IMG/VR virus record: IMGVR_UViG_3300005860_000225
Location: 1-33,478 of that record
Length of the DNA: 33,478 nt
Strand: one strand, 5' to 3'
Source: a virus
A model generated the notes under the pieces. It searched no databases. It worked only from the letters and a program-made list of their open reading frames with translations, and had not been told where the DNA came from. The position numbers and the translations under genes are program-made. This document shows, piece after piece, positions 14,960 to 32,399 of the stretch. Positions within the stretch are counted from its first letter, which is position 1, and each line of letters starts with the position of its first letter.

Positions 14960-16045
14960 TTAGATCTTCGCCTTTAAATATATTCCTATCGCGCTTTGAT
15001 CTGTTCTAGGATTAACTATGTCTAGAATGTTTCTGATCTTCGAGTACGTTGGATATAGCTCGAACTTTCTTGCTCTGATGATAGCAGCTTCCTCATATTC
15101 TTTCTTCCTTCTCGTGATCTCATCTTTTGCTTGAATTATTATGTCAGCGTATTCTTCAGGATCATACAAATGCAGCTCGAATAGTATTCCAGAAGCTTCC
15201 TCGTAGAGCTTCTTTCCACGTATTGGAACTCTGAAAGAGGATTCTGAAGATGTTATCTCTGATAGAGGCTTATAGTTACCATGAACGACAGGCTTACCGC
15301 TAGCTAGAGCTTCAAGAACCGGAAGACCGAAGCCTTCTATTAGACTGAACTGTGAATATAGATCGAACATTCCGTAAAGAGTCTTTATGGATTCTTCTGA
15401 GAGAGATCCGAATCTATTTAGAAACATAACATTATCGAGATCCCTATAGAATTTCTCTGCTCCATCTCTTGACACAACTATGAATTTGATCTTTGGGTCT
15501 TTCTTCCCTACTATTCTCGCTACTCGAGATGCATAGTCATGCCCTTTTCTTCTGTGATCACTTGCTATATAGCCTACAATAAAGGTATCTTCACCTATTC
15601 CAAGCTTGCTTCTTGCTCTTGCTCCCAACGTAGGAGCATCCTTATATTGCGAAGTATCTATTCCATGGTAGACAACATCAATTACTCTGTACCCTGCTGC
15701 AACTAGCTTTTCTTTTGTGTATTCAGAGTTCGCTACGAAATCCACCTCTCTTCTGACCCAGTCAAATGCTTCAGGATTTCTCACGTAGCCTTCAATAGTT
15801 CCGTAGTATATTGTTTTCTTTCCTAAGCTAGACATTCTGTATGCTAAATAGAGATACTGGGAGCATGTAGCTAGATCTACAGGCATGACTATGATTCCTG
15901 CTTCAGCTCCAAGGATTGTGCCTATGTCTAGGGGTTCATATGCAAGGATTGGTTCATCGTTCATCTGCTCCAGAACTTTGGCTATGTCATAAGCTACCTT
16001 CTTGAGGCTCACTCCGATCTTACTGGTAAACAGAGCGATTCTCAT
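14960..16045 (-). CDS. GT4-type glycosyltransferase
   Basis: 361 residues, the usual size for a single-polypeptide GT-B retaining enzyme of family GT4. Landmarks: an N-terminal Rossmann half with MPVDLATC and the DFVANSEYTKEKLV segment at ~102-115; VVYHGID at 124-130; a nucleotide-sugar half starting at GYIASDHRRKGHD (158-170); and the family's E-x7-E motif in FSLIEGFGLPVLEALASGKP (Glu237, Glu245). Donor and acceptor cannot be read from sequence. Position inside the structural cluster suggests glycosylation of virion proteins. Because the window also hints at modified cytosine, sugar transfer to DNA is a weaker alternative. Start ATG follows AAGGGAT. Confidence 0.85.
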   Translation of the reverse strand: MRIALFTSKIGVSLKKVAYDIAKVLEQMNDEPILAYEPLDIGTILGAEAGIIVMPVDLATCSQYLYLAYRMSSLGKKTIYYGTIEGYVRNPEAFDWVRREVDFVANSEYTKEKLVAAGYRVIDVVYHGIDTSQYKDAPTLGARARSKLGIGEDTFIVGYIASDHRRKGHDYASRVARIVGKKDPKIKFIVVSRDGAEKFYRDLDNVMFLNRFGSLSEESIKTLYGMFDLYSQFSLIEGFGLPVLEALASGKPVVHGNYKPLSEITSSESSFRVPIRGKKLYEEASGILFELHLYDPEEYADIIIQAKDEITRRKKEYEEAAIIRARKFELYPTYSKIRNILDIVNPRTDQSAIGIYLKAKI

Positions 16046-17144: not shown

Positions 17145-17513
17145 ATGGGAAAACTCGTAAAGTATGCAGATGATATGCTACAAGCATTCGTGGGTAAGAC
17201 AGCACCAGACAGAGTCGGCACAAGATACGAAGCAGTAAAGGAACTAGCAATAGCTAAGTACTCAGTAAAAGGGCTAAACGCTAGGACAATAATTGAGCTT
17301 GTTCGTGGAATACTCAGTGATCTAGGCGTTCCAGTAGGCAAATGGGGAATCCACATAGCATTCGGACTGAAACTGTGGAAGATGGCTCAAGCGTATGCAG
17401 GTGCTCCTCCACCAGCAATAGTGGAAGGCTTCATCACAGAGTTTACGCTAAAGGGCGGTGATCCAGCAATTCTAACGAAGATAGCAAATATAGTTGCATA
17501 TACAGCTAAATAA
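17145..17513 (+). CDS. Major capsid protein candidate 1 (bicaudavirus-like four-helix protein)
   Basis: 122 residues, mostly helical. Its C-terminal half (LSDLGVPVGKWGIHIAFGLK at ~60-80, then a Pro/Ala loop and IVEGFITEF...ILTKIANIVAYTA) has the same pattern as the next protein and as my recollection of bicaudavirus ATV/STSV capsid proteins, which carry a YGI-G--RAIYQGYGLKIARAL segment. That comparison is from memory and needs an alignment. The gene has a clear promoter (TAATTATA, 17111-17118) and a GGGTGA site four bases before ATG. Its pairing with a same-size paralogue fits virus families with two capsid subunits. Confidence 0.6.
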   Translation: MGKLVKYADDMLQAFVGKTAPDRVGTRYEAVKELAIAKYSVKGLNARTIIELVRGILSDLGVPVGKWGIHIAFGLKLWKMAQAYAGAPPPAIVEGFITEFTLKGGDPAILTKIANIVAYTAK

Positions 17514-17525
17514 GAGGTGAGATAG

Positions 17526-17894
17526 ATGCCCACATCCTATCTGGATCAATTCAACAAATACAAACTCAAATACAGCGGTGCTAACGTAACAGCAGTGCTC
17601 ACAGCTATAAAGGACACAGTAATGGTTCCAAGGTTCCAGGTAGCGACTCAGCTAATAGTCCAGGATAGAGAAAAAGTAAGACAGATACTAGAGGAGAATG
17701 GAGTTCCGCCAGGTCTGCATGGTATCTACTACGCGTTCGGCTTTGCTCTGAGCTCTGCTAAGTTCAGCCATACTGGAGCGACTCTTCAGACAATAGCCTC
17801 AGCTCTGAAAGCTAGATTCGCAGGAATGGGTGCAGACACAACGATACTAAATGCTATCGCTGCTGCTCTGACAGGATACGCTCCATACTACTAG
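17526..17894 (+). CDS. Major capsid protein candidate 2, paralogue of candidate 1
   Basis: 122 residues, 12 bases after its paralogue with a strong GAGGTGAG ribosome site. Shared layout: an N-terminal helix region (YLDQFNKYKLKYSGANVTAV), then ILEENGVPPGLHGIYYAFGF corresponding to ILSDLGVPVGKWGIHIAFGL in candidate 1, and a C-terminal helix pair (DTTILNAIAAALTGYAPYY). The YYAFG segment is the part most like bicaudavirus capsid proteins as I remember them. A T-run at 17929-17936 ends the two-gene unit. High expression is suggested by ribosome sites and a dedicated terminator. Confidence 0.62.
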   Translation: MPTSYLDQFNKYKLKYSGANVTAVLTAIKDTVMVPRFQVATQLIVQDREKVRQILEENGVPPGLHGIYYAFGFALSSAKFSHTGATLQTIASALKARFAGMGADTTILNAIAAALTGYAPYY

Positions 17895-22913: not shown

Positions 22914-23309
22914 ATGGTAAATATCATCCAAGTAAGTGTGGATCCTAAAGAGCTTGAAGTTAAGGATAAACTTGAAGCAATGTTTGAACTTAATAAAAGG
23001 TACTTAGAATCACTAAAAGAGCCTCTATCTATACCTCTAGACTCAAAAGCAGGACAGGAGAAGCTTCGAAAACTCTTCTGGTATATGATTGAGGAACTTT
23101 TTGAAGCAGTGAATGCTTTGAAGAATGACAGGGACTGGGTGAGAACAGAATACGAGCTTGATCTTTGGAGAATCTATGACGAGATAGCTGATGCGTTAGG
23201 GTTCTTCATAACTATTTGCAGATACTTGAATCTCGATCCAAACAAGCTCTATGAGATCTACTTGAGGAAATGGAAAGTAAACCTATTCAGAGTAAACTCC
23301 CAGTACTGA
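22914..23309 (+). CDS. All-alpha NTP pyrophosphatase, dimeric dUTPase/dCTPase-like
   Basis: 131 residues. The motif EELFE (Glu60, Glu61, Glu64) and YDEIADALGFFI (Glu90, Asp93) form the metal-binding ExxE/ExxD set of all-alpha NTP pyrophosphatases. The C-terminal YEIYLRKWKVNLFR fits the YxxKxxxNxxR tail of dimeric dUTPases, a family that includes phage T4 dCTPase/dUTPase. It hydrolyses dUTP and/or dCTP to the monophosphate and pyrophosphate in the cytoplasm. It heads the operon with the thymidylate synthase homologue, which uses a dNMP, so supply of substrate to that enzyme is the likely job. Substrate choice cannot be read from sequence. Confidence 0.78.
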   Translation: MVNIIQVSVDPKELEVKDKLEAMFELNKRYLESLKEPLSIPLDSKAGQEKLRKLFWYMIEELFEAVNALKNDRDWVRTEYELDLWRIYDEIADALGFFITICRYLNLDPNKLYEIYLRKWKVNLFRVNSQY

Positions 23310-23319
23310 GGTGATCTAG

Positions 23320-24027
23320 GTGAGAATATACTCCAGCATGAAGGATCTCTTCTCAGAGACAGTTAGAGAGGTCTTTGCTAGAGGTCAGATAACTTTCGAT
23401 CCAACAGTTCAGGGAGTAAAAGTTCCTAGAGAAGAATATGAGATGAGGGAGCTCATAGGCTACGCATACAAGCTGACTGGCTGGGAAGACATGAAAGAAG
23501 CACTAGACTGGTGGAAAACTAAGTTCGAGAAAAAATTCGTAAGCTACGATACAGCTAAGAAGTGGGCAGAGGAGATGATGAAGCCGCTAAATCCAGACAC
23601 GTGGTGGAAGGGTGTTATGGACGAGTACTGGGCAAAGTTCTCAATCTATGGCAAAGTTGGAAGATTCGAATATACCTATGGAGAGAGAATCTATCCATAC
23701 CTTCACCTACTGATAGAAGACATAAAGAGAAACCCTCAAGGAAGAGGACACTTCATCAGTGTATGGTATCCTCATGACACTAGTGTAACTTGGCGTAGGC
23801 CTTGCACTATTGGATACCAGTTCATCTGGAGAGAGCCTAAAGGGTACATAATCATCTATCAGAGAAGCTGCGACTTAGTAAACTTCTTCCCTCTAGATGT
23901 AGCTAAAGCAATAATCTTTGCAGAGAGAGTTCTTGAGTTAGCAGGCTTGAAGCTGACTCATCTAGTCCATTTCATTGGATCATTGCACGCATATAGGGTT
24001 GATGTTCCTAAAGATCTTCAGTGGTGA
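23320..24027 (+). CDS. Thymidylate-synthase-fold enzyme with Asp at the dUMP/dCMP specificity site; probable dCMP (hydroxy)methylase
   Basis: 235 residues, ThyA family. The N-terminal part has YGERIYPYLHLLIEDIKRNP, aligned with YGxQWR...DQL. Catalytic Cys162 lies in RRPCTIGYQF, followed by YQRSCD (Arg182, Ser183, Asp185). From Cys162 the spacing to Arg182 (+20), the specificity position 193 (+31), His223 (+61) and Tyr225 (+63) equals that from E. coli Cys146 to Arg166, Asn177, His207 and Tyr209, with no gaps. Position 193 is Asp, not Asn. In T4 dCMP hydroxymethylase this residue is Asp, and Asn-to-Asp is known to switch thymidylate synthase towards dCMP. The GTG start sits three bases after a perfect GAGGTGATC. 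Confidence 0.85.
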   Translation: MRIYSSMKDLFSETVREVFARGQITFDPTVQGVKVPREEYEMRELIGYAYKLTGWEDMKEALDWWKTKFEKKFVSYDTAKKWAEEMMKPLNPDTWWKGVMDEYWAKFSIYGKVGRFEYTYGERIYPYLHLLIEDIKRNPQGRGHFISVWYPHDTSVTWRRPCTIGYQFIWREPKGYIIIYQRSCDLVNFFPLDVAKAIIFAERVLELAGLKLTHLVHFIGSLHAYRVDVPKDLQW

Positions 24028-24038
24028 TAAACACTGCC

Positions 24039-24764
24039 ATGGATCTCAGAGACACATATCTCTACCTTGTAAGGAGATCAGCTCAAGGAGAGAATTGTGG
24101 ACTTAAGAACATATGCATCACGAACATTGATCCAGCAATTGAGAGAATTCCTGAAATAGAGCCTTTCTCATATATCCTGATAGATAGGAAGGCTGATTCA
24201 ATCTTTAACCACTACTATAGACCTTATCTGGATTCAATAAAGCGTGGAGACATTGTAAGGCTTCCAAGAGAGACGTGTGTGGAGTCAGTAAGGTTTGATG
24301 GATCTCTAAACATCACTTTTCGTAGAGCAAGGCTGTTCCCAACGATCTACATTGACTTCCTTGTCATCGAAAAACTGGCAAGAGATCTTGGAGCTAATAA
24401 AGTAAGTCTCTGCTTTGCCAAATTGTCGAATAATGTCACTGCTCCATACTTCAAGGCTGCCATCGATGCTTTAGGAATAAGTGAAGCATGTTTATCCTGT
24501 ATCAGGACAATACAGAGAATGACAAAAATGTATTATGACATAGTGGAGCTGAAATACTTTCCCAGAATGGGGCATTTCTTGAAGCTCGCGGCATTCTACT
24601 TTGCTCATGTCCATAGAATCATCAGCAGGAATGAAGCAAGGCTTCTATATTACTATCTTAGATACAAGAACTCTCTTGACTCTAGAGTAAGAAAGGGTGC
24701 AGATTATGGAGAAGCAATCCATCGTAAAGTCCTATCTCGAATCAGGAGCAATAGTCCTGAGTAG
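24039..24764 (+). CDS. Unknown protein between the nucleotide genes and the DNA glycosylase
   Basis: 241 residues from ATG 24039, ten bases after GGTGAT; a GTG at 24021 is an alternative start. I do not recognise a family. The first ~95 residues mix helix and strand (DLRDTYLYLVRRSA, PFSYILIDRKADSI, RGDIVRLPRETC). The middle has a helix-strand IYIDFLVIEKLARDLGANKV and a conserved-looking LCFAKLSNNVTAPYFKAAID. The C-terminus is Tyr/Arg-rich (FYFAHVHRIISRNEARLLYY). Six cysteines are present. Its place in the operon makes a DNA or nucleotide modifying role worth testing, but the sequence does not show one. Confidence 0.6.
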   Translation: MDLRDTYLYLVRRSAQGENCGLKNICITNIDPAIERIPEIEPFSYILIDRKADSIFNHYYRPYLDSIKRGDIVRLPRETCVESVRFDGSLNITFRRARLFPTIYIDFLVIEKLARDLGANKVSLCFAKLSNNVTAPYFKAAIDALGISEACLSCIRTIQRMTKMYYDIVELKYFPRMGHFLKLAAFYFAHVHRIISRNEARLLYYYLRYKNSLDSRVRKGADYGEAIHRKVLSRIRSNSPE

Positions 24765-25299
24765 AGACAACAATAAAAATGCGAGATATGTCGACTTTGT
24801 CAGCAAGCTTCTATTATGTGCTAGATGTCCTCTTAGATCAAATCATCCCTGGCCTGCAAGCGGTAACCTGGATTCAAAGGTGATGATTGTAGGTGAAGCT
24901 CCTTCACCCAATAGATCCAGCTTCGAGAATTTCAGTGAGAAAAGCAGGAATATAGTGGATCTCATGCTAAAGGAGATGAATCTAAGCAGAAAAGATGTAT
25001 ATATTACTAATGCAATAAAGTGCAGCTTTGTAAAGCTCACCAAAGACATGAAGGAGTCTCTTCTGAAAAACTGCATTGATTATCTGATACAGGAAATAGA
25101 TATAGTGCATCCAAAAGTTGTAGTGGCTTTAGGTGGAACAGCTGAGAAGGCTTTGACTCACATAAGGAACAATGTTAGGTCTGACTTTATGCTTATCCAT
25201 TTTCCTCATCCAATGACTGTGGTTTACGGATCAATTAAGCTTGAGACATATCTCGAGCAGGTGAGAAAGAAGTGGACTTTAGTAAGATACTTGATATAG
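24706..25299 (+). CDS. Family 4 uracil-DNA glycosylase-like protein with Fe-S cluster
   Basis: 197 residues. Cys38 and Cys41 (LCARCPL), Cys106 (TNAIKC) and Cys123 (KNCIDY) fit the four ligands of the UDGa [4Fe-4S] cluster, with spacing x2, x64, x16. Motif A is VGEAPSPN (63-66 GEAP) and the motif B region is HFPHPMTVVYG (His165, His168), close to the family's HPS/HPA. The enzyme removes uracil from DNA. I chose ATG 24706 over GTG 24697 because GGGTG is six bases before it. It overlaps both neighbouring genes and lies directly before the polymerase. The GRPFVG segment of typical members is replaced by NFSEKS, so activity should not be taken as given. Confidence 0.8.
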   Translation: MEKQSIVKSYLESGAIVLSRDNNKNARYVDFVSKLLLCARCPLRSNHPWPASGNLDSKVMIVGEAPSPNRSSFENFSEKSRNIVDLMLKEMNLSRKDVYITNAIKCSFVKLTKDMKESLLKNCIDYLIQEIDIVHPKVVVALGGTAEKALTHIRNNVRSDFMLIHFPHPMTVVYGSIKLETYLEQVRKKWTLVRYLI

Positions 25300-27557
25300 A
25301 CTATTTTACTGAGCAGGGAGTAACTAAGCTAAAAATAGTCGAGAAAAGCAAGCCTAAGAGGATAGTTGTAATTACTGAAAAAGTAAGGCCTTACTTTTTC
25401 ATTAGAAAAATCGATATGAACAATGCCTCTAGCGTTATTCAGAGCTCAGCTTTAGTAGAGGATGTGGATGCAGTTACTATTTCAGGAGAGAAGGTTGTCA
25501 AAGTCAGCGTCTCCATACCAAAGCAAGTGAGAGATCTTAGAGACGCCTTAAACTCGATGGGTATACAGACGTATGAGGCTGATCTTCCCTATGTCAGAAG
25601 AGTAATGATAGACAAAGACATAAAAGTTGCGTATCCAGAAAGAATAGCTGCATTCGACATAGAAGTGGATGCAACAAAGGGATTCCCTGATATACAGAAC
25701 CCTGAAGGGAGAATACTTGCAATAAGCATATACGACGGGAATGAAGAAATATTCTTAAGCGAGGACGACGAGATAAAGATGCTGAAGGACTTTAATAAGC
25801 TATTGCCCAACTATGATGTATTCATAGGATGGAACAGCGCTGGATTTGATTATCCTTACCTTGTTAACAGAGCGAAGAAGCTGGGAATAAATATAGACGT
25901 GGAGATGTTTCAGCACATAGATCTCTTTGGTATATACTCAACATATTTCAAGAGAGACATCACTGACTTCAGACTCAAGACAATAGCACTCAAAGTATTA
26001 GGGGATAAAGTTCCTCTTGGAGCTCTTCTTGACTTTGAGAAGCCAGGAGAAATTGCTAAGCTTACAGAGTTCTTCTATAAGGATAAAGACAAACTTAGAC
26101 TATACAATATGGATCAGACAAAATCAGTATGGCATATAGCAGAGCAGACAGGAGTAGTCCAGACATACATCACTCAATGCAGGCTTGCAAATGTTCTTCC
26201 TTGGCATAGAGATTTGAGTGAAAAGATGATCGCTCATAGGAAATACATTTCGTATAACAGAATGATCGAGAACCTCGTATTGAAGAAAGCTCTAGAATCT
26301 AAGCCGAGAATAGTGTTTCCAAGCAAGCAGACTACAGAAGAGGAGTACGAGAACTATGATGAGGACGAGTCAACATATACAGGAGCAGTTGTTTTCGATC
26401 CTTATCCTGGCCTCTGGAGAAACGTTGTTCTTCTTGACTTTGCATCAATGTATCCCAGAGTAATCATGACATTCAATGTATCCTATGACACGTGGACTCC
26501 GAATCCTGGAGAGAATGATATACTAGCTCCGTCAGGAGGATTCATTACTTCTAGAGAGGGCTTCCTTCCTCAAGTTCTGAGAGAGCTTGAACAATACAGA
26601 ACAATTGCAAAGAAACTGGTAGATGCATATCCTCCTGGCTCAATGGAAAGAATACTGTGGAATGCAAGACAGTTTGCATTCAAGCTTCTATTGGTATCAG
26701 CATATGGAGTAGCAGGATTCAAGTACTCGAGACTCTATAGAATAGAGATAGCCGAAAGTATTACTGGATATACAAGAGATGCTATAACCAAAGCAAAAGA
26801 GTTCATTGAATCACAGGGCTGGAGAGTACTTTATGGAGATACAGACTCCCTATTCCTATACAATCCAAGCGTGAACTCGCTCGAGCAAGCTGTGGATAAA
26901 GCAGTACACGAGCTCATACCAACACTTAACAGCTACATCAGGAATTACGTAGTAAATCGATGGAGAGTGCCTCCAGAAAGAGTAGTCATCGAGTTTAAAG
27001 CTGACAGAGTATTCACCAAACTAAAACTCCTATCAGTAAAAAAGAGATACTACGGACTAGTAGGTTGGGAAGAGGAGTTCCTCGAGGAGCCATACATTCT
27101 AATAAAGGGTCTTGAAGCAAGGAGAGGAGACTGGCCCGAGCTTGTAAAAGAAATACAGGCTAAAGTCATAGAGCTATACTTGAAGGAGTCACTTGACGAG
27201 GCTCTAAAGTATGTCGAAGAAATGCGAAACAAAGTAATTAATGGAGAGGTCGATCTGGAGAAGCTAGCAATACGTAAGCATCTATCCAAGAGCATAGACG
27301 AGTACAAGCACAAAGCTCCACACATAGAGGCAGCAAAGATGCTTTTGAGAATGAACTATCCTGTAAGACCTGGTGACAGAATAGAATACATATTCTTAGA
27401 CGATCAAGCAATACCTCTTACTCCAGGACTGAAGCTGACTAAGTCTCAACTAGAAAAGTGGTGGAAGAAGTATGCAGAGCCAGTAGTAGAGAGACTAGAG
27501 ATAGAGATGCCTAGAGCATCACTCTTAGAGTTCATAACTAGAAGGGAGAAGAATTGA
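25272..27557 (+). CDS. polB: Family B DNA polymerase with proofreading exonuclease
   Basis: 761 residues, close to the size of euryarchaeal PolB. Exonuclease motifs: AFDIEVD (Asp129, Glu131) and GWNSAGFDYPYL. The exo III region (LYNMDQTKSVWHI) is less regular than the usual Y-x3-D. Polymerase motifs: A, DFASMYP (Asp389); B, KLLLVSAYG (Lys471), where the usual Asn is Val; C, YGDTDS (Asp523, Asp525); and KKRYYG. There is no long TPR insertion expected of protein-primed polymerases, so it most likely uses the primase encoded at 17981. The GTG start has GGTGAG eight bases upstream. The C-terminus SLLEFI is a weak PCNA-binding look-alike. Confidence 0.92.
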   Translation: MDFSKILDIDYFTEQGVTKLKIVEKSKPKRIVVITEKVRPYFFIRKIDMNNASSVIQSSALVEDVDAVTISGEKVVKVSVSIPKQVRDLRDALNSMGIQTYEADLPYVRRVMIDKDIKVAYPERIAAFDIEVDATKGFPDIQNPEGRILAISIYDGNEEIFLSEDDEIKMLKDFNKLLPNYDVFIGWNSAGFDYPYLVNRAKKLGINIDVEMFQHIDLFGIYSTYFKRDITDFRLKTIALKVLGDKVPLGALLDFEKPGEIAKLTEFFYKDKDKLRLYNMDQTKSVWHIAEQTGVVQTYITQCRLANVLPWHRDLSEKMIAHRKYISYNRMIENLVLKKALESKPRIVFPSKQTTEEEYENYDEDESTYTGAVVFDPYPGLWRNVVLLDFASMYPRVIMTFNVSYDTWTPNPGENDILAPSGGFITSREGFLPQVLRELEQYRTIAKKLVDAYPPGSMERILWNARQFAFKLLLVSAYGVAGFKYSRLYRIEIAESITGYTRDAITKAKEFIESQGWRVLYGDTDSLFLYNPSVNSLEQAVDKAVHELIPTLNSYIRNYVVNRWRVPPERVVIEFKADRVFTKLKLLSVKKRYYGLVGWEEEFLEEPYILIKGLEARRGDWPELVKEIQAKVIELYLKESLDEALKYVEEMRNKVINGEVDLEKLAIRKHLSKSIDEYKHKAPHIEAAKMLLRMNYPVRPGDRIEYIFLDDQAIPLTPGLKLTKSQLEKWWKKYAEPVVERLEIEMPRASLLEFITRREKN

Positions 27558-28204
27558 AGACAGTAATAGTAGACTCTAGAGAATGGGAGACAACTAGAGA
27601 CAGGATAGCTAGGAAGCTAGAGGAGCTTGGATTAAGAATAATTGTGAAGCCTCTAGATATATCCAACTACTTAATCGAGAGAGAAGACAAGACTCTACCT
27701 CTCCAGAGGATATACTACAAGAAGTATCTAGAGATGATAGCTAAGGGAGAAGTATACAACTTAATCTACAAGCTGTCAGGGACAGATGGACTGATACTGG
27801 TGGAGATAGAAGACTTGTCAGAAATAGGAGACAGCATTCCAGCATACGGTAAAGCACTAGAAGTATCTCTAAAGACTGCTCTAAAATATAGAGTTCCAAC
27901 TATCTTGTCCCACGTGTATCTCACTCCAAAGATAATATGCTACCTTGCAACAGAAGACTTATTCGACAGCAAGAAGAAAGAGACCAAGATATATACCAGT
28001 AATCCACGTGAGCTTGCATTAAGCATGCTCATGAGGCTTCCGGGAATTGGACCAAAGACAGCTGCAAGGATTCTTGCAACATTCAGAAGTCTGAGGAATC
28101 TTGCGAATGCTGATATGGATAGCTTGATGAGAGTCGAGCGTCTAGGAAAGGAAAAAGCTAAACTCATATACGAGGTCTTTAATTCATCTCTTGATCAAGA
28201 CTAG
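27554..28204 (+). CDS. XPF/ERCC4-like protein with degenerate nuclease site and tandem HhH
   Basis: 216 residues. The start IVDSRE (Asp7, Arg9, Glu10) matches the first strand motif of XPF/Mus81 nucleases. The later GDY and ERKxxxD motifs of active enzymes are not found: the equivalent region reads ISNYLIERED and LPLQRIYYKKYLEMIAKGEV. The C-terminus is a helix-hairpin-helix pair (LPGIGPKTAARILATF at ~162-177 and VERLGKEKAKLIYEVF at ~194-209), as in crenarchaeal XPF. So it may bind branched DNA without cutting, or pair with a host subunit. Start is TTG sharing TTGA with the polymerase stop, preceded by GGGAGAAG. Confidence 0.68.
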   Translation: MKTVIVDSREWETTRDRIARKLEELGLRIIVKPLDISNYLIEREDKTLPLQRIYYKKYLEMIAKGEVYNLIYKLSGTDGLILVEIEDLSEIGDSIPAYGKALEVSLKTALKYRVPTILSHVYLTPKIICYLATEDLFDSKKKETKIYTSNPRELALSMLMRLPGIGPKTAARILATFRSLRNLANADMDSLMRVERLGKEKAKLIYEVFNSSLDQD

Positions 28205-30887: not shown

Positions 30888-31043
30888 CAGCTTTATTTCC
30901 CCGTCTATATACTTCTTTATCAGGATCCTGACTACTTCCCGTATGGTTCTGCCATCCTCGTAGCACTTGGTCTTGAATCTCCTGTGCGTGTCGTCATCGA
31001 GCTCCACGAAGAAGTGCTTCATCTGTTGAGCACCCGTATTCAT
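30885..31043 (-). CDS. 52-residue ribbon-helix-helix-like protein
   Basis: A short gene. MKHFFVELDDDTHRRFKTKC gives a strand and first helix, and DGRTIREVVRILIKKYIDGE a second helix, the order of a minimal ribbon-helix-helix regulator. The ATG at 31043 is ~24 bases from the TATA-like part of the promoter repeat (31051-31070), so the transcript is probably leaderless. A stem (30837-30843 with 30881-30887) and a T-run on the minus strand end it. Confidence 0.62.
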   Translation of the reverse strand: MNTGAQQMKHFFVELDDDTHRRFKTKCYEDGRTIREVVRILIKKYIDGEIKL

Positions 31044-31050
31044 ATATATC

Positions 31051-31070
31051 TATCCAAGTATATAAATTTG
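31051..31070 (-). promoter_or_regulatory. Shared promoter element, copy A
   Basis: Plus-strand TATCCAAGTATATAAATTTG; on the minus strand a TATA box followed by TACTTGGATA. It shares TATCCAAGTAT with copies B and C and sits ~24 bases from ATG 31043. Confidence 0.55.
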
Positions 31071-31156
31071 TCCTAGACAATGATCACAGCTACTGGCCAT
31101 GAGTAAATCGAGAAGCTAGATTAGTGCTTCGGTATTGATGATTCAGTGTATATGCA

Positions 31157-31621
31157 TCAAAAAGCCTTTTGCTCTTTTAGCTTACTAATTATTTCCTCCC
31201 CTTCCCCCAGGACCTTTTTCGCTTTCCCTAGCATCAAGCTGATCTCATATTCTCTCAGAGCTCTTTGAACCATTTCTCTGCAGAACTCAGGTTCCTCTCT
31301 TACCTTGTTTACTATTAACGCGTGATATATGGCGTCCAGCAGAGTCTTTTCCTTTAGTATCTTGAGGAAGTAGCTAAGAACTATAGGTTCACTTAAGTGA
31401 ATAACTATTTTTTTAACCTTAGCGTCTTCGAGGTAATCGTCACCTATCAGCTCAATGCCTATGTTTCCTTTTTCCAGCAGTTCCACCGTGACGTTTTGCC
31501 AGAACTTCTTTGGCACCCAGTCCAATATTTTGTAACGCCTGAGGTCATCCCTAAGTCTTTCCTTCCTCTCCTGCATCGCTCTTCTTATCATCTCGAACTT
31601 CCCTTTCGTTCTTTTCACCAC
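31157..31621 (-). CDS. Hypothetical 154-residue protein
   Basis: Starts at GTG 31621, seven bases after a strong GGTAGGAGG site. The N-terminal ~30 residues are very basic (VKRTKGKFEMIRRAMQERKE). A beta strand pair (VTVELLEKGNIGIELIGDD, then VKKIVIHLSEPIVLSYFLKI) is followed by helices to the end. No family is recognised. It carries the 27-base promoter repeat found also before 32334. Confidence 0.5.
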   Translation of the reverse strand: MVKRTKGKFEMIRRAMQERKERLRDDLRRYKILDWVPKKFWQNVTVELLEKGNIGIELIGDDYLEDAKVKKIVIHLSEPIVLSYFLKILKEKTLLDAIYHALIVNKVREEPEFCREMVQRALREYEISLMLGKAKKVLGEGEEIISKLKEQKAF

Positions 31622-31655
31622 TACGTTCCCTCCTACCTTATGCGTATATGGTCAC

Positions 31656-31682
31656 TTACTTATATGTGTATCCAAGTATTTA
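31656..31682 (-). repeat. Shared promoter element, copy B (27-base exact repeat)
   Basis: Identical over 27 bases to 32352-32378; core on plus is TATATGTGTATCCAAGTATT. It lies 35-60 bases before GTG 31621 and on the minus strand contains TAAATACTTGGATA, a TATA with a downstream box. Confidence 0.7.
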
Positions 31683-31791
31683 GGCTTTTCAGTAATTAAG
31701 CATAATTGCAAAAACACCTGTGAACAATTATAAAAAAAATAGGTTAAAGCTTAAAGTAAAGTGTTGTGAAAAAAAGATTTGGTTTTTTGGT

Positions 31792-32334
31792 TTATTCCTC
31801 TTGTTCTTCCTCTTCCTCTTTCTCTTGTTCTTTCTTGTTTATTTTTATAGCTAAGTTATTAACAATCTCTCTTATTGTGTATATGTCTCTTTCTGTCTGC
31901 TCGATCCTCCTAAGATCTGGCAGATATCTTTTTACCTTGCTTATATATATCTCGAGAGTCTCTAGAAACTCTACCATCAATTTGTCATAGTATGCTTGTT
32001 TATCACTAAATTTTTCGTCTAAGCAACTAAATATTGGTCTATTTGCTAAACAATCTTTGCTAATGTCACCTAAATATGCATGAATATTAGGCGTATATAC
32101 ACTTGCTGTTTCATCAATGTTAAACTCTATCTGCAGGTCTGAATACGAATCTTTCTTACCTTTCTGTATTTTTGCTATCCTCTTCATATCGTATATTAGA
32201 TTTACCAATTTTGCATAATATTTGTCAATTTCTTTTGTCTCGTCTTTTGCTATACCTACTATGTCTTCGTATTCTTTTAGTTTACTCGCTATATCTTCTA
32301 TCTTTTCATCTATTGAGTTTTGTGTGTTTTCCAT
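31792..32334 (-). CDS. Hypothetical coiled-coil protein with acidic tail
   Basis: 180 residues, largely helical with coiled-coil-like spacing at both ends (DEKIEDIASKLKEYEDIVGI; then REIVNNLAIKINKKEQEKEE). The C-terminus is a run of Glu. A central, less regular part holds two cysteines (KDCLANRPIFSCL). ATG lies seven bases after AAGGTGT. T-runs on the minus strand after the stop (at ~31771-31777 and 31732-31740) look like terminators. Function unknown. Confidence 0.52.
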   Translation of the reverse strand: MENTQNSIDEKIEDIASKLKEYEDIVGIAKDETKEIDKYYAKLVNLIYDMKRIAKIQKGKKDSYSDLQIEFNIDETASVYTPNIHAYLGDISKDCLANRPIFSCLDEKFSDKQAYYDKLMVEFLETLEIYISKVKRYLPDLRRIEQTERDIYTIREIVNNLAIKINKKEQEKEEEEEQEE

Positions 32335-32351
32335 TTACTTTACACCTTAAT

Positions 32352-32378
32352 TTACTTATATGTGTATCCAAGTATTTA
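32352..32378 (-). repeat. Shared promoter element, copy C (27-base exact repeat)
   Basis: Exact copy of 31656-31682, located 18-44 bases before ATG 32334. Minus strand TTTAAATACTTGGATA is TATA-like. The exact identity across 27 bases, with different flanks, points to a conserved regulatory site rather than gene duplication. Confidence 0.7.
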
Positions 32379-32399
32379 AACATTTAGTTATATATATAT

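Follow-up and report, generated by a model that had tools for sequence, protein, structure and literature searches.

Does this virus make a C5-modified cytosine nucleotide for its own DNA? The question is raised by a gene at positions 23320–24027 (plus strand) of IMG/VR record IMGVR_UViG_3300005860_000225, all 33,478 nucleotides of which are called the window here. The gene encodes a thymidylate synthase (TS) homologue with aspartate at the site of E. coli ThyA Asn177, and an earlier note on this DNA had proposed that the virus makes 5-methyl- or 5-hydroxymethyl-dCMP. Modified cytosine nucleotides made before replication are known from bacteriophages. In the literature searched, which was thin on Adnaviria, we found cytosine modification described for no adnavirus. 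The case of DNA modification in an archaeal virus found there is 7-deazaguanine in a halovirus, and 12 Ligamenvirales are only predicted to carry 7-deazaguanine-type genes (PMC6884629).

An Asp-Type Thymidylate Synthase Homologue

The ORF is intact, with a GTG start at 23320 and a TGA stop, and encodes 235 amino acids. It scores 59 bits against PF00303 (E 5.5e-16; Pfam gathering cutoff 24.3) and matches the PHROG thymidylate synthase family (E 8e-27). With the cutoff passed and the core catalytic residues present, the protein is by sequence a member of the TS superfamily (PF00303). The exact ThyA spacing claimed in the earlier note holds, as Cys162, Arg182, Asp185, Asp193, His223 and Tyr225 correspond to E. 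coli ThyA residues 146, 166, 169, 177, 207 and 209, each plus 16. Its central observation holds as well: codon GAT at 23896–23898 (plus strand) places Asp193, the predicted cytosine-selecting residue, at the Asn177 site. The catalytic Cys162 is followed in the alignment by Thr163 at the His147 site (23803–23808, plus strand). Three residues N-terminal of this Cys lies Arg159 (23794–23796, plus strand), which is Asp145 in T4 gp42 and Leu in TS. Further dCMP-type features are Thr163 itself, Ser221 at the Asp205 site (as in T4 gp42) and the absence of the C-terminal lid region. Residues 61–88 align poorly, and the register for the equivalent of the catalytic Glu58/Glu60 is unsure; with regard to the Glu60 of T4 type, the family has an invariant Glu44 and a Glu spaced as in TS.

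The protein misses the ThyA equivalog cutoffs of NCBIfam (55.5 versus 325 and 52.1 versus 108 bits) and that of the methanogen-type ThyA equivalog (37.8 versus 174.6 bits), and it has Asp193 and Thr163 where ThyA has Asn at 177 and His at 147. With the window TS alone as query, the best matches among solved structures are TS entries. The third-ranked solved sequence is the L. casei N229D mutant pair 1njc and 1njd, which carries the same Asn-to-Asp change, with Asp aligned to Asp. Structure prediction, one of the checks named in the earlier note, gave a confident TS fold (AlphaFold2, pLDDT 91), for which the top Foldseek match is MilA, a CMP 5-hydroxymethylase that uses Asp186 for cytosine.

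Relatives of the Asp-Type Enzyme

We searched IMG/VR with an alignment of the window TS and three phage homologues, which yielded 464 relatives, of which 80 were kept; the same scan with the window protein alone found none. The resulting family alignment has 84 rows, which comprise 76 distinct sequences and have a median pairwise identity of 38%. Invariant over all rows are Asp193, Cys162, Arg182, Ser183, Asp185, His223, Arg142 and Tyr120; the search pattern included PC[TS], which in part favored Cys and the Thr/Ser behind it, and Asp193 lies outside the patterns. All 84 rows have Ser or Thr at the His147 site, and the Asp205 site is Ser or Asn. The residue at the window Arg159 position is Arg in every row, and at the Tyr118 position it is Tyr in 77 and His in seven. 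Nine canonical TS in the same alignment (eight from phages and one from locus L064) have Asn at 177 in 9/9 and His at 147 in 8/9. T4 gp42, the dCMP hydroxymethylase for which the earlier note had cited an Asp at this site, does align with Asp there, and has Thr after the Cys and a Ser in common with the family.

Phylogeny, another check that had been named, groups the family with T4 gp42 and AfhB and splits them from canonical TS (maximum likelihood, support 100/95), in a tree with long branches for T4 gp42, AfhB and the window TS, and with only a fragment of AfhB. Two Asp-bearing phage enzymes, those of AXL1 and locus L004, fall on the TS side, which makes more than one origin of the Asp switch probable. 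The family profile scores T4 gp42 at 54 bits versus 33–37 bits for TS, and against PDB it ranks AfhB (E 5e-21) ahead of every TS entry (5e-17). Because GTDB genomes hold only three loci of this family, it is essentially viral within what was searched.

A Divergent Paralogue in the Overlapping Gene

The partner gene at 24021–24764 (plus strand) overlaps the Asp-type TS gene by 7 nt. Its protein matched no database family and nothing by BLASTP, and its profile found no sequence match in PDB, where only fold comparison gave matches. Relatives were therefore sought with iterated profiles, MAFFT with far relatives giving the wrong register. The profiles led from the window partner to that of L023, and then to 63 partner proteins in 61 of the 84 loci; each shares the strand of its Asp-type TS, and 53 lie within 600 nt. 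Aligned by hhalign, the partner family profile matches the TS family at 78% probability, and none of eleven control families exceeds 2.6%. With the window partner as the starting point, the probability is 52%, and the match covers just 39 columns, those around Cys, Arg and Asp. Partner residues Cys86, Arg101 and Asp112, conserved in 62/63, 60/63 and 63/63 proteins, correspond to Cys162, Arg182 and Asp193 of the TS. The model of the window partner is good in the core (residues 1–136) and poor in the C-terminal half. All 50 Foldseek matches listed belong to the TS superfamily, AfhB first (E 2.9e-4), at modest TM-scores (0.17–0.44). In a held-out test, the partner was present in two of the three GTDB loci, L088 (E 1e-87) and L089 (E 3e-19). 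By these profile and fold comparisons the partner, to which we assign no function, is a second TS paralogue, strongly diverged but with Cys, Arg and Asp retained. What is new is this pairing of TS and paralogue, together with its presence in a virus of Adnaviria-like type.

Several loci vary the arrangement. Two tandem partner copies stand beside the Asp-type TS in a gut phage (L002:3260–5099) and in a Dysosmobacter MAG (L088:3248–5096). At L064:2667–6352, the Asp-type TS lies within 4 kb of DNA that also encodes two TS-like partners and a canonical TS of the Asn type. Both Asp-type TS and partner are found at L089:3809–6411, and because this contig is binned as Pacearchaeota, further archaeal viruses may have the pair.

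Loci that lack the partner have other neighbors. An asparagine-synthase-like protein is found in 10 of the 23 partner-less loci and never beside a partner (p 4e-7), and a C5-methyltransferase-like protein in 6/23, again never beside a partner (p 2e-4); both p-values are optimistic, as the loci share ancestry. The former are asparagine-synthase/glutamine-amidotransferase-like proteins (phrog_16728, cluster 23; L008:2571–3929 and nine other loci) and are candidates for further base modification. The DNA C5-methyltransferase-like proteins lie beside the Asp-type TS at L008:4729–6000, L029:4892–6001, L033:4787–5980, L043:6742–7932, L065:4478–5689 and L069:4767–6011. In four of the six there is no PC dipeptide, and in the remaining two it occurs only far downstream; they thus seem to lack the usual catalytic Cys motif.

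The Virus and the Gene Neighborhood

Two tandem genes resemble capsid genes of filamentous archaeal viruses: 17145–17513 (plus strand) is a weak match to AFV1-like major capsid protein 1 (PDB 3fbl and 5w7g, E 0.02–0.04), and 17526–17894 (plus strand) matches rudivirus-like major capsid protein 2 over nearly its full length (PDB 6wq0, E 3e-4; 3j9x, E 0.002). A tblastn comparison with deposited virus records gave no match. Because the two genes resemble rudivirus and AFV1 coat proteins, the virus is, by its SIRV2/AFV1-type major capsid proteins, Adnaviria-like (class Tokiviricetes). Only from these capsid proteins do we infer that it is a virus of hyperthermophilic archaea. The same record that holds the capsid pair (17145–17894) also encodes a family B DNA polymerase (PolB, 25272–27557), a primase-AAA protein, a uracil-DNA glycosylase and a RecA-like SWIM ATPase. 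To our knowledge this gene content is unusual for a filamentous archaeal virus, and we are not aware of an adnavirus that encodes a PolB. Among deposited records, the PolB is nearest to that of haloarchaeal tailed viruses. Taken one at a time, the TS, PolB, capsid, primase and 1605-aa proteins found no relatives among viral contigs, and no close relative of the virus was found. The record may be incomplete, since it shows no terminal repeats and its class is that of a virus fragment or linear. A 34-nt repeat occurs in three copies near the right end (31038–32385), 71–100% identical to the reference copy and spaced 618 and 696 nt.

Directly upstream of the Asp-type TS, 22914–23309 (plus strand) encodes an all-alpha NTP pyrophosphohydrolase, a candidate dCTPase/dUTPase (phrog_12184, E 9e-14; phrog_173, E 4e-8; Pfam PF08761/PF01503 only below cutoff). 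The T4 dCTPase, gp56, matches the same two PHROG families, and a direct BLASTP comparison of the two proteins gave no match. By these profiles the protein is in the superfamily of the T4 dCTPase; its cluster is present in 60/84 loci. Downstream of the partner, the run of overlapping genes includes the uracil-DNA glycosylase (24697–25299, plus strand; PF03167, E 1.2e-22). PolB (plus strand; PF00136, E 2.3e-55) follows, and then an ERCC4-like nuclease with helix-hairpin-helix (27554–28204, plus strand; HHH_5, E 1.6e-12; ERCC4, E 0.0013, below cutoff). No dedicated dNMP kinase, DNA-modifying transferase, flavin reductase or dCMP deaminase was recognized in the window. A group 1 (GT4-like) glycosyltransferase is encoded at 14960–16045 (minus strand; PF00534, E 1.6e-15). 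A role for it as a DNA sugar transferase is unsupported, the match being an ordinary group 1 match, far from the module and on the opposite strand.

The Predicted Substrate

Selection for cytosine is the known role of Asp at the 177 site (PMC6400193, PMC5175136, PMC8670742). In the MetaGPA study, made on native phage DNA, Asp177 together with non-His147 marks those TS homologues whose contigs bear physically modified cytosine; 177 and 147 are the top two positions separating TS homologues of cytosine-modified DNA from others, and the former co-occur with PF01503-type pyrophosphohydrolase and dCMP deaminase (PMC8670742). The window TS has both residues (Asp193, Thr163) and a pyrophosphohydrolase of this type, and many of its relatives have a dCMP deaminase neighbor. 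The residue observation is more informative than the earlier note knew. The MetaGPA class differs in coming from phage metagenomes, in a study that ranked Pfam domains, none of which the adjacent TS paralogue matches, and it has not been reported for adnaviruses in the literature searched. MilA, in contrast to the window TS, has Ala176 and Lys133 for ribose (PMC5175136); the window TS has Ser183 and Arg142, each in 84/84 family rows, which point to dCMP over CMP, and hence to deoxyribose.

We predict that the window TS acts on dCMP. Because it belongs to the Asp177/non-His147 class, has a pyrophosphohydrolase directly upstream and has several relatives with a separate thymidylate synthase, the virus probably makes C5-modified dCMP for its own DNA. 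Among 50 related records, which are fragments, so that gene absences in them are weak evidence, four have a clear ThyX (E below 1e-25), a fifth has a partial ThyX over the cutoff, and one has a second, canonical TS (E 4e-94); in L064 the canonical TS is about 0.9 kb from the Asp-type TS. In relatives with their own ThyX or TS, the Asp enzyme would not simply be the dTMP source. At 27/84 loci the Asp-type TS has a dCMP deaminase nearby, which leaves a route there from modified dCMP to a thymidine-type nucleotide.

Which Group May Be Placed on C5

To handle water, the T4 hydroxymethylase depends on Ser94 and on Asp145, which stands three residues ahead of the Cys. The published dCMP hydroxymethylase signature is Asp/Glu three before the Cys and Ser/Thr at T4 position 94 (PMC6400193). 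The window TS shares with T4 gp42 the Cys, the Asp of the 177 site (Asp193; T4 Asp179), Ser169, Ser-Leu-His-x-Tyr, the missing C-terminal lid and a dCTPase-type enzyme in the pathway. It differs from it in the TS paralogue next door and in having Arg159 for Asp145 and Tyr118 for Ser94, and because of these two residues the family name "dCMP hydroxymethylase" is not supported. Thus, from the earlier note, C5-modified dCMP stands as probable and the hydroxymethylase name does not. The residue three before the Cys is Leu in TS, Glu in AfhB (the dCMP hydroxylase of phage HY126; PDB 9iqu, 9iqc), Asn in Stenotrophomonas phage AXL1 and Arg in the family. This Arg matches none of three described chemistries. 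AfhB is like the window TS in the Asp at the 177 site and the Cys-Thr, and AXL1 in Asp at 177, non-His at 147 and pyrophosphohydrolase and dCMP deaminase neighbors; AXL1 differs in its place on the canonical TS side of the tree and in a dihydrofolate reductase (DHFR) gene near its TS. DHFR is found in 0/50 related records (fragments), which weakly favors a reaction without folate oxidation. Hydroxymethyl would be the likeliest single group, at somewhat less than an even chance. Methyl is a less likely candidate, some other group less likely again, and a flavin-dependent, AfhB-like hydroxyl the least likely. Hydroxylation is an option beyond the 5-methyl and 5-hydroxymethyl of the earlier note.

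Proposed Pathway and Alternatives

We think it likely, by a fair margin over even odds, that these genes form a viral pathway making a C5-modified cytosine nucleotide ahead of DNA synthesis. By cleaving dCTP, and perhaps also dUTP, the pyrophosphohydrolase would supply the monophosphate. The Asp-type TS would bind dCMP, with Cys162 attacking C6 and Asp193 holding and protonating the cytosine ring while a group is placed on C5. The product would be phosphorylated, probably by a host kinase, and built into the genome by the viral PolB. The TS paralogue would act in the same pathway, either in a second step on the nucleotide or as a subunit of a mixed dimer. Homology, residues, conservation, gene order and the kinship of the paralogue are what the analysis shows; the dCMP substrate, the incorporation into DNA and the partner role are what we infer. 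A more specific and quite tentative version is that the Asp-type TS and its paralogue are one two-component dCMP-modifying enzyme (mixed dimer or successive steps), with an undescribed C5 chemistry marked by Arg at −3, common to bacteriophages and at least one filamentous archaeal virus, whose genome would contain modified cytosine, in Adnaviria perhaps as A-form DNA.

Several other readings have to be weighed against the proposed pathway. The window TS could be a true T4-type dCMP hydroxymethylase that carries out the same water-based chemistry through other residues, giving viral DNA with 5-hydroxymethylcytosine. The shared Asp, Cys-Thr, Ser-Leu-His-x-Tyr and missing lid, the place of the family on the T4 gp42 side of the tree, the upstream enzyme of the gp56 superfamily and the lack of DHFR in the 50 relatives all suit it, but the Asp145 and Ser94 that T4 needs (PMC6400193) are an invariant Arg159 and a nearly invariant Tyr118, and we hold it to be unlikely though worth serious consideration. 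If TS chemistry were instead applied to dCMP, the enzyme would be a dCMP methylase and the DNA would carry 5-methylcytosine as in phage Xp12. The Asn-to-Asp change alone makes a TS a dCMP methylase, according to work known here through its citation in PMC8670742, the hydroxylation signature is absent from the window TS, and an Asp-type TS occurs in AXL1, which is related to the 5-methylcytosine phage Xp12. Yet AXL1 branches on the TS side, apart from the family, and has the DHFR that is absent from the 50 relatives, which leaves methylation improbable.

A flavin-dependent dCMP hydroxylase like AfhB, yielding 5-hydroxycytosine, appears less probable than any other reading, even though AfhB is the top solved match of both the family profile and the partner's fold: its Glu at −3 is Arg in the window TS, the window sequence alone is closest to TS entries, and no flavin reductase was recognized. 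Finally, the enzyme could be a divergent source of dTMP, either a plain TS despite the Asp or one acting through 5-methyl-dCMP and a deaminase, in a virus with unmodified DNA. Membership in the TS superfamily and the deaminase near the Asp-type TS in 27/84 loci would fit, and the uracil-DNA glycosylase and pyrophosphohydrolase would suit keeping uracil out. Against this stand Asp177 and non-His147 throughout the family, the ThyX or TS that some relatives have of their own, the scores far below the TS equivalog cutoffs and the deaminase not recognized in the window; we regard it as rather improbable.

The conserved pair of TS and TS paralogue, which is without a functional name and is found in about 60 viral loci, would offer a handle on an undescribed step of cytosine modification.
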